Part shown: positions 8,866 to 11,151 of the stretch, one piece after another | How positions within the stretch are numbered: position 1 is the first letter of the stretch | How the letters are laid out: each line of letters opens with the position of its first letter | Assembly: GCF_042453785.1 (NCBI RefSeq) | Contig: NC_091677.1 | Span: forward strand, 27,281,501-27,345,500 | Direction of reading: 5' to 3' | Length of the DNA: 64,000 nucleotides | Origin: Malus domestica | Lineage: Eukaryota > Streptophyta > Magnoliopsida > Rosales > Rosaceae | Program-made: the position numbers and the translations under genes | Notes under the pieces: model-generated | Told to the model about the DNA's origin: nothing | Seen by the model: the letters and a program-made list of their open reading frames with translations, nothing else | The model's database searches: none

Positions 8866-9067
8866 CCACCCACAGATTTAGCACTTTCTGCGCCTACGCC
8901 GCCATCTTCCACCACACTGCCTCATTCGATTTCGAGCGCACCGCCACCAGCGACCCCTAGCGCGCCACCTCCTCCTGCTCTTGTGTTTCGTGACAGGAAA
9001 TGCATGCCCTCTGCATTCTGTGTTGTTCTCTGCGCGTACGTCGAAGGAGGGAGGAATGAAGAGAGAG

Positions 9068-9401
9068 ATGAAGAACGACGAGTACGACGACGTTTTGGAA
9101 CCGCCCATCAATTTCTCGATGGTGGATGATGGTATTTTTAGATCCGGCTTCCCGCAGCCATCCAATTTTCCTTTCCTTAAATCGCTTAAATCTCCGATCA
9201 ATCATATATTTGTGTCATGAGCCGTACCCAGAAGAGAATTTGGAGTTTCTTCGGTCTCATAATATTCGGCTACTCCAGTTTGGAATTAAGGGAAAGACGG
9301 AGCCTTATGTATCTATTCTTAAGGATACCATCTTGGAGGCTCTGAAAATCCTTATTGATGGGAGAAATCATCCTGTTTTGATCCACTGTAAGCGTGGAAA
9401 G
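9068..9401 (+). pseudogene. captured PFA-DSP phosphatase fragment (left arm)
   Basis: The piece encodes the first part of a plant atypical dual-specificity phosphatase (PFA-DSP/SIW14 family): [19 protein letters not shown], then [31 protein letters not shown] and the start of the catalytic P-loop, HCKRGK. The P-loop normally reads HCxxGxxRTG; here it is cut after GK and joined to other sequence, so the enzyme would be dead. One extra A near 9186-9190 (CTTAAATCT) shifts the frame between the first and second block. The phosphatase region runs about 110 codons with no intron, which suggests capture of spliced RNA. Confidence 0.85.
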
Positions 9402-9449
9402 GTTCATGACGTTCTTGTTCTTGGAGGAGGCCAACTGGGTCGGATGTTG
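9402..9449 (+). pseudogene. short purK/AIR-carboxylase-like motif (left arm)
   Basis: Joined in frame to the phosphatase P-loop is VHDVLVLGGGQLGRML. The core VLGGGQLGRML is the nucleotide-binding start of the PurK domain of plant phosphoribosylaminoimidazole carboxylase. Only about 16 codons are present, after which the sequence changes to something I do not recognise. The length makes the assignment tentative. Confidence 0.45.
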
Positions 9450-9634
9450 CTGAGAAGCCTGAAGCTGCAGCTGCGCTAGAAACACCACCTCCGACTCCCT
9501 CCGTTCCCTCTTCTCCGCCTTCGACGAGCTCGACGAAGTTATCGTCATCCACAACAATTTCTTGGACGAGTATCGGAGAATGGATAGGCTTTGACGACGA
9601 CGAATGGCGAAGCCGTTGGATGACATCTGACTAG

Positions 9635-9745
9635 AAAAGCAGTGAAGGTAAAGCAGGTTCCTTTAAACACATAGCTGGAAAGTGGCCCAGCGACCACGAT
9701 GATAAAGGAATTCAGACATCTAATGATGCCAAGCTGTTTACCATC
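9635..9745 (+). pseudogene. captured calreticulin fragment (left arm)
   Basis: The frame reads [16 protein letters not shown], then [16 protein letters not shown]. This is the N-terminal region of calreticulin (ER Ca-binding lectin chaperone), where WKxSEGKAGxFKHTAGKW and DKGIQT are hallmarks; CRT3-type plant proteins are closest by memory. It ends without the rest of the lectin domain. The same piece is present inverted at 10473-10583. Confidence 0.65.
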
Positions 9746-9846
9746 CCACTACAAGGTCCCAGCAGCAACCAGGCCGAAAGCAAAAGTAAAGCAGAAAAAC
9801 AAAGTAAAAGATGTCTGGATATGGAGAAAAGCCGAGGATAATAGCG

Positions 9847-10205
9847 GGTGATAATAGCGGCAGGCTGCAGAATAATTTTGGAGTATTAGGCGTACTTTTG
9901 ATCACCTGGTTGGTGATAATAGCAGCAGACTGCCGAATAATTTTTTGTAGTAATGGATGTACTTTTGATCGTCTGATTGGTGATAATAGCGGCAGACTGC
10001 CGAATAATTTTTTGTAGTATTGGACGTACTTTTAATCGCCTGATTGGTGATAATAGCGGCAGGCTGCCGAATAATTTTGGAGTACTGAGCGTACTTTTGA
10101 TCACCTGGTTGGTGATAATAGCGGCAGGCTGTCGAATAATTTTGGAGTACTGGGCGTACTTTTGATCACCTGGTTGGTGATAATAACGACAGGGTGCCGA
10201 ATAAA
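9847..10205 (+). repeat. minisatellite in the hairpin loop, six 65-67-bp units
   Basis: Units begin GGTGATAAT at 9847, 9912, 9979, 10046, 10111 and 10176, i.e. spaced 65, 67, 67, 65 and 65 bp. At each unit junction TGATCACC...GGTGATAA can pair as a small stem with a 5-base loop. The array occupies most of the 543-bp spacer between the inverted arms. 10206-10380, the rest of the spacer, is single-copy and unrecognised. Confidence 0.9.
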
Positions 10206-10380
10206 TTTGAAGCCATAGGGCTTGGCTCTTTTGGGCATATGGGCATTCGCCCTCCACATAACATTCCAGTCCATTATTTTGGGATTTTTTTTTGGCGCTT
10301 TCTTTACACATCAGTATAACTATACAATAATTGCTCAAGTTTGCAGAAGACAACTTAATAAATATGGGTGTGCCATGCTT

Positions 10381-11151
10381 CCTCGGCTTTTCTCTATCTC
10401 CAGACATCTTTTACTTTGTTTTTCTGCTTTGCTTTTGCTTTCGGCCTGGTTGCTACTGGGACCTTGTAGTGGGATGGCAAACAGCTTGGCATCATTAGAT
10501 GTCTGAATTCCTTTATCATCGTGGTCGATGGGCCACTTTCCTGCTATGTGTTTAAAAGAACCTGCTTTACCTTCACTGCTTTTCTAGTTAGATGTCACCC
10601 AACGGCTTCGCCATTCGTCGTCGTCAAAGCCTATCCATTCTCCGATACTCGTCTAAGAAATTGTTGTGGATGACGATGGCTTCGTCGAGCTCACCGAAGG
10701 CGGAAAAGAGGGAGCGGAGGGAGTCGGATGTGGTGTTTCTAGCGCAGCTGCAGCTTCAGGCTTCTCAGCAACATCCAACCCAGTTGGCCTCCTCCAAGAA
10801 CAAGAACTTCACGAACCTTTCCACGCTTACAGTGGATCAAAACAAGATGATTTCTCCCATCAATAAGGATTTTCAGAGCCTCCAAGATGGTATCCTTAAG
10901 AATAGATACAGAAGGCTCCGTCTTTCCCTTAATTCCAAACTGGAGTAGCCGAATATTATGAAACCGAAGAAACTCCAAATTCTCTTCTGGGTACGGCTCA
11001 TGACACAAATATATGATTAATCGGAGATTTAAGCGATTTGAGGAAAGGAAAATTGGACGGCTGGGGGAAGCCGGATCTAAAAATACCATCCTCTACCATC
11101 GAGAAATTGATAGGCGGTTCCAAAACGTCGTCGTACTCGTCGTTCTTCATC
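10381..11151 (-). repeat. right arm of 771-bp inverted repeat
   Basis: This is the reverse complement of 9067-9837, with about 97 percent identity by eye and no net length change. It carries the same gene fragments on the minus strand: calreticulin 10473-10583, purK-like 10769-10816 and PFA-DSP 10817-11150. It also shares the +1 frameshift (CTTAAATCT when read on the minus strand), so the arms come from one already broken copy. Confidence 0.92.
10817..11150 (-). pseudogene. captured PFA-DSP phosphatase fragment (right arm)
   Basis: Inverted copy of the phosphatase fragment in the left arm. It keeps [19 protein letters not shown] and the truncated P-loop HCKRGK, and has about ten amino-acid differences over 116 residues from the left arm. 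It is broken in the same way, by the shared frameshift and the missing C-terminal half. Confidence 0.85.

Follow-up and report, generated by a model that had tools for sequence, protein, structure and literature searches.

Gene capture by LTR retrotransposons is usually told gene by gene, with maize Bs1 as an LTR element that holds pieces of several cellular genes. Pack-MULEs and gene-capturing Helitrons acquire host sequence at the DNA level and keep the introns. A third system of relevance is Mu killer of maize, an inverted copy of a mobile element making a hairpin RNA, which has been shown to silence in trans. Equally, full-length LTR elements bearing host genes have been published with, in the accessible portions of these accounts, captures counted singly and small RNAs mapping to some. 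In Triticeae, as far as the available text of that work goes, abnormal template switching during reverse transcription has given rise to complexes that fuse two elements and were inserted with a target site duplication (TSD); the words "inverted" or "palindrom" do not appear in this text (PMC1950507).

The locus described here lies in a 64-kb stretch of Malus domestica DNA, hereafter called the window (C17:27281501-27345500). Like Bs1, it is an LTR element in which spliced fragments of several host genes lie in sense orientation, but it differs in belonging to a multi-copy family with differing patchworks among its members and in uniting six donor loci in one copy. As with Pack-MULEs and Helitrons, many copies carry varied gene pieces, whereas capture has occurred here at the RNA level. 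Insertion with a TSD and, probably, abnormal switching are common to it and the Triticeae complexes, and an inverted copy of a mobile element is common to it and Mu killer, the hairpin RNA of the window element being a predicted one. Compared with captures counted one by one in the accessible published record, multi-gene mosaics occur here within one family without gag or pol in its cassettes, with an inverted copy in addition. In titles and abstract openings, mostly from journals outside subscription, nothing was found on this patchwork family, and searches of the same titles and abstract openings brought up neither LTR elements with inner gene-fragment hairpins nor palindromic LTR copies with a TSD.

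Gene capture by LTR elements is already known, and the family of mRNA patchworks is a variation on it. We consider it rather probable that the window element belongs to a non-autonomous LTR family of many copies, the body of which is a patchwork of reverse-transcribed host mRNA, and that its hairpin arose incidentally during the reverse transcription from which the insertion resulted.

Structure of the insertion and its inverted repeat

A complete LTR retrotransposon insertion occupies positions 8048-12182 of the window (Table 1). Its two LTRs of 361 bp each, in direct orientation and with TG...CA ends, are identical at 343 of 361 aligned positions, and TACTG is present at both flanks, in agreement with the clean insertion of the original prediction, which had also correctly located a TATAAAA motif in the 5' LTR. 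The 5' LTR is followed by TGGCGCCGT, a candidate tRNA primer-binding site; the candidate is presumably tRNA-Asp-like, and a search of the 64-kb window for a tRNA gene to compare it with found none. A plasmid source was considered and dropped after no match was obtained in a plasmid collection, a result which says little about a plant element. Elsewhere in the window, a 42-bp unit is repeated twice just beyond the element (13120-13206) and an LTR-like stretch at 44514-44806 matches the LTR of the patchwork family at 79%.

Table 1. Features of the window element (window coordinates)
Feature	Position	Strand	Basis or remark
TSD TACTG, left copy	8043..8047	.	
5' LTR, 361 bp, TGTT...AACA, TATAAAA at 8167	8048..8408	+	LTR also present in relatives
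Family leader after 5' LTR; first part common to canonical copies	8409..8531	+	
Probable primer-binding site TGGCGCCGTCTGTGGGAA	8411..8428	+	sequence
5' end of C16 gene (TLC-domain protein by eye)	8532..8680	+	sense, about 93%
5' end of C9 gene (APC5-like by eye)	8672..8856	+	sense, 93%
Piece of proline-rich C2 gene (PERK-like by eye)	8839..8972	+	sense, 88%
PFA-DSP mRNA: 5' UTR and four spliced exons of C12 gene	8965..9403	+	93-98%
Left arm of inverted repeat	9067..9838	+	
Patchwork stretch	9404..9595	+	9482-9557 = C10:38958570 at 92%, sense by eye (RNA-binding protein by eye)
Calreticulin-like mRNA piece, two spliced exons of C4 gene (paralogue on C12)	9596..9744	+	sense by GT-AG
Loop: 65-bp repeats (5.5 copies, 9847-10209) and L2 segment; inverted relative to canonical members	9839..10379	+	
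Right arm, copy of the left one in reverse orientation; joined to the loop as in the ancestral order	10380..11151	-	
Family 3' region, up to 3' LTR	11152..11821	+	
3' LTR	11822..12182	+	
TSD TACTG, right copy	12183..12187	.	

The inverted repeat is a copy of part of the cassette and of the 65-bp repeats. As predicted, two inverted copies enclose a loop, with the arms, however, one base longer than proposed, the ungapped arm identity 741/772 (96.0% and not 97%) and the distance between the arms 541 bp instead of 543 bp; the similarity of the arms is far above chance level. The 31 differences between the arms include 0 indels and 23 transitions, are found in all cytosine contexts as in decaying elements and, when polarized with donor or relative outgroups, comprise 12 changes in the left arm, 13 in the right arm and 6 assigned to neither.

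Such differences have a bearing on whether the structure is an assembly artefact or consists of two elements placed head to head. Long-read assemblies are known to create long inverted copies in error, a point in favour of an artefact; on the other hand, the substitutions are scattered, free of indels and have changed both arms, and the presence of two LTRs only, with a TSD, and of joins away from the LTRs speaks against either version, which makes this explanation hardly credible. The hairpin at 9067-11151 is real.

Captured host mRNA pieces

The cassette of the window element (8532-9744) is composed of host mRNA fragments from six donor loci, all in sense orientation and two of them visibly spliced. 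The names TLC, APC5, PERK, calreticulin and RNA-binding protein are readings of translations by eye, which we take as provisional labels. For the pieces from C16, C9 and C2, sense orientation is given by matches on the strand of the donor reading frame. Intronless sense fragments as in an mRNA-capturing LTR element are seen in the four PFA-DSP exons and the two calreticulin-like exons, and fragments of several genes are combined in one copy.

Three host-derived components had been predicted in the arms, with different outcome. The PFA-DSP content is confirmed by Pfam PF03162 (E 5.8e-23) and by the donor gene at C12:31372557-31373742, of which four exons are joined with the introns absent and the match departing at the end of exon 4. 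For the calreticulin-like piece, a spliced capture is supported, as it aligns with a pair of exon blocks at both C4 and C12 and an intron with GT/AG ends has been cleanly removed; no calreticulin Pfam domain was found in the window frames, and the name reflects a putative protein motif. The purK-like motif was not substantiated, as PF22660 reached only E 0.023 and 15.5 bits against a cutoff of 27; the purK/AIRC reading of the patchwork stretch was rejected on this sub-cutoff match. As DNA, the stretch breaks up into short segments that resemble different loci.

Neighbouring pieces of the cassette overlap by 8-18 bp at their BLAST ends, and GACCTCA is common to the TLC and APC5 pieces at their join; the comparison of join anchors covers the pieces other than the leader and PERK, whose anchors were poor. 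No family LTR or leader was found within 1.5 kb of four donor loci (L040, L041, L044 and L050), as expected of donors. A second match to the C10 piece (L051 on C11, 82%) adjoins the family LTR and leader, so that the C10 piece sits in another member too. Independent of the cassette, a PFA-DSP-like stretch at L029 2453-2775 (C16:1730952-1731274) runs as one block across the exon joins with 75% to the window piece; with no family segment seen around it, it is perhaps a retrocopy or an intronless paralogue.

The patchwork family

Genome searches covered a 651-Mb assembly of 19 contigs, from which relatives were fetched by place; searches with family segments gave 2138 and 2562 first-look candidates, 40 of each being scored. 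The canonical order of segments is LTR, leader, cassette, L2, 65-bp repeats, 3' region and LTR, with the 65-bp repeats oriented opposite to those of the window element. Leader and 3' part are constant in the family, with host mRNA patchwork between them. Two of the relatives are incomplete, L034 being without the 3' end and L062 without the 5' end.

An all-versus-all comparison of 12 cassettes, mostly without the calreticulin-like piece, indicates how far these patchworks differ. The window, C5, C6 and C16b cassettes share 0.16-0.45 of their length, corresponding to the TLC-APC5-PERK pieces, the C7, C9 and C16s cassettes share 0.19-0.25, and all remaining pairs 0.00-0.15, mainly leader. The C14 cassette is found in three further whole copies at 97-98%, which implies that cassettes are also inherited; the four copies, located at L061 2368-4280, C5:43793013, C5:43772695 and C5:32723270, with two of them 20 kb apart on C5, represent a more recently multiplied lineage.

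The content of 17 cassettes, including that of the window, was assessed by a Pfam scan of their three sense frames. Cellular domains above cutoff are present in seven cassettes, namely Y_phosphatase2 in the window and, in the others, RRM; Enolase_N with H_PPase and I29; PPR; DEAD; GRAS with PMI; and UQ_con. Two of the 17 have matches below cutoff only (E up to 0.001) and eight have no Pfam match of any kind in the three sense frames; among the five full cassettes from the 3'-region search, two have Pfam matches. Gag, reverse transcriptase and integrase domains were found in none of the sense frames of the 17 cassettes, which therefore lack the gag and pol domains of autonomous Ty1/Ty3 elements.

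All nine Pfam domain matches in six cassettes are in sense orientation (9/9), and no Pfam match came from the 18 antisense frames of these cassettes, this control comprising 6/17 cassettes, that is six of the seven with matches, the PPR cassette being left out. If orientation were free and the matches independent, the chance of this outcome would be 0.002, a figure that is approximate because a stretch overlapping the H_PPase match recurs elsewhere. This stretch of the L060 cassette (1278-1747), overlapping the H+-pyrophosphatase match, is seen at more than 20 other places; it and the calreticulin-like piece, which recurs as well, are probably old captures marking lineages. On C9, four family 3' regions (14746583, 14749872, 14753161 and 14756450) are spaced at intervals of precisely 3289 bp, which may reflect tandem repetition of the element or a part of it.

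Inverted copies are found in other members too. L026 (C9:8181000-8189000, 1-8001) is a palindrome as a whole, with LTR, 3' region and repeats followed in mirror by repeats, 3' region and LTR; its two LTRs point outward, giving two outward U5 ends, and the TSD TAAGT is present on both sides. L026 resembles a palindromic cDNA that was integrated through two ends of the same kind. L031 on C15 is a similar palindrome, in which a TSD was looked for and is absent, and L032, equally on C15, has an inner palindrome, with a single LTR visible in the sequence retrieved; in both, the calreticulin-like piece forms inverted pairs. Among loci fetched regardless of inversion, one of 17 (L026) has an inverted copy, a count outside which L031 and L032 stand, as they were chosen for opposite-strand arm matches, and from which L030 was left out, its 98-bp inverted pair (81%) having one arm outside the element; L038 and L039 were left out of the scan. 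This frequency together with L031 and L032 indicates that inverted products recur without being the rule.

Origin of the hairpin

Read backwards, right arm and loop of the window element have the ancestral order. The loop is reversed relative to canonical members, and the arm-L2 join with GCCGAGGAAGCATGGCACACCC is shared by L028, and by L034 except for a short insert there, so that the new joins are those at 9838/9839 and 11151/11152. Both carry the same 24 bp, in opposite orientations and differing at two positions, and the window element can thus be described as the cassette, followed by one inverted block (cassette part, repeats and 24 bp), then by 24 bp and the 3' region. The overlaps at the two new joins are about 2 and 1 bp by eye, and with almost no microhomology at both, DNA repair fits as well.

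A canonical insertion could have come first, with the inverted copy arising afterwards at the chromosomal site through break repair or template switching in replication. Consistent with such an order of events are the joins overlapping by 1-2 bp only and the 24-bp stretch in opposite orientations at the two ends, a feature also of inverted repeats produced by repair. Arm divergence (31/772) compared with LTR divergence (18/361) gave Fisher p 0.44 and a rate ratio of 0.80 (0.45-1.45); this similarity does not favour a large age difference between hairpin and insertion in either direction, in a test that is weak, as an inversion of as little as roughly half the age of the insertion, or one slightly older than it, fits too. 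While the lower bound of 0.45 would accommodate a later chromosomal event, the best estimate of arm age is near that of the insertion, and palindromic members exist, one of them with a TSD, so that a reverse-transcription route is open to the family. On balance, we regard the later chromosomal origin as rather unlikely, although it is the main rival; the hairpin is probably a one-off product of reverse transcription. Counting against this route are the need for two strand switches, the single inverted copy among the 17 loci, the lack of a TSD at L031 and the lone LTR seen in L032.

Template switching in plant LTR elements has been published, as far as the accessible parts of these reports extend (PMC1950507, PMC13317346). 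In the window lineage, element RNA and host mRNAs would have been co-packaged, and the enzyme would have switched between sense RNAs, whereby the gene pieces became stacked. In the founding cycle of the present insertion, reverse transcription may then have switched to the opposite strand and back, with the overlap of 1-2 bp at the joins, and the product may have been integrated with both LTRs and have decayed subsequently.

Silencing potential

The original prediction saw in the locus a mobile, LTR-driven hairpin that could yield siRNAs against several host genes. As in silencing hairpins, the long inverted repeat is capable of stem formation: in the fold predicted for a transcript of 9067-11151, 750 of 772 left-arm bases are paired in register, with 15 uninterrupted stretches of 21 nt or more amounting to 580 nt together. 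Windows of 21 nt matching perfectly between the two arms and the donors number 39 for PFA-DSP on C12, 11 for its homologue on C4 and 17 and 16 for the two calreticulin-like loci; the inverted pairs of the calreticulin-like piece in L031 and L032 point in the same direction, and captured fragments in maize elements have been reported, in the available part of that account, as siRNA reservoirs (PMC13317346). With 21-mers perfect to the donors, silencing of the donor genes by the window hairpin is possible as a prediction.

A mobile element type is a different matter. The arm search of the genome found no second copy of the window hairpin in the 40 of 110 candidates scored, where only the window's own two arms match in full, and the hairpin as a repeated unit was thus rejected, which leaves the proposed element type unsupported. 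Equally, divergence does not clearly place the arms before the insertion, both drift with mostly transitions, and other relatives hold the same gene pieces without a hairpin. Taken with these observations, a mobile hairpin directed against several host genes is very unlikely. For a hairpin formed in reverse transcription, as we prefer, a transcript may form and would be expected to feed, at most, silencing of the element itself.

Implications

The notable part of these observations is the patchwork family rather than the hairpin, as one family comprises many lineages with different stacked mRNA pieces and with the donors at hand in one genome. Template switching between element RNA and host mRNA becomes countable in such a setting, with respect to which mRNAs are taken up, from which end, with what overlap and how frequently. 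The L026 palindrome with its TSD suggests that integration remains open to an aberrant cDNA whose two ends are alike, and bears on what the integrase needs.

As a speculation to which we give little credence, the family, with copies possibly numbering in the hundreds to thousands, might continually gather host mRNAs, new sense spliced pieces being stacked and multiplied in its lineages, with reverse transcription also giving rise to integrating palindromic and hairpin cDNAs and hence to ready-made hairpins against changing sets of the plant's own genes, some of which would become small-RNA loci. If any of the hairpins is transcribed, they would serve as natural experiments on the origin of new siRNA loci directed against host genes.
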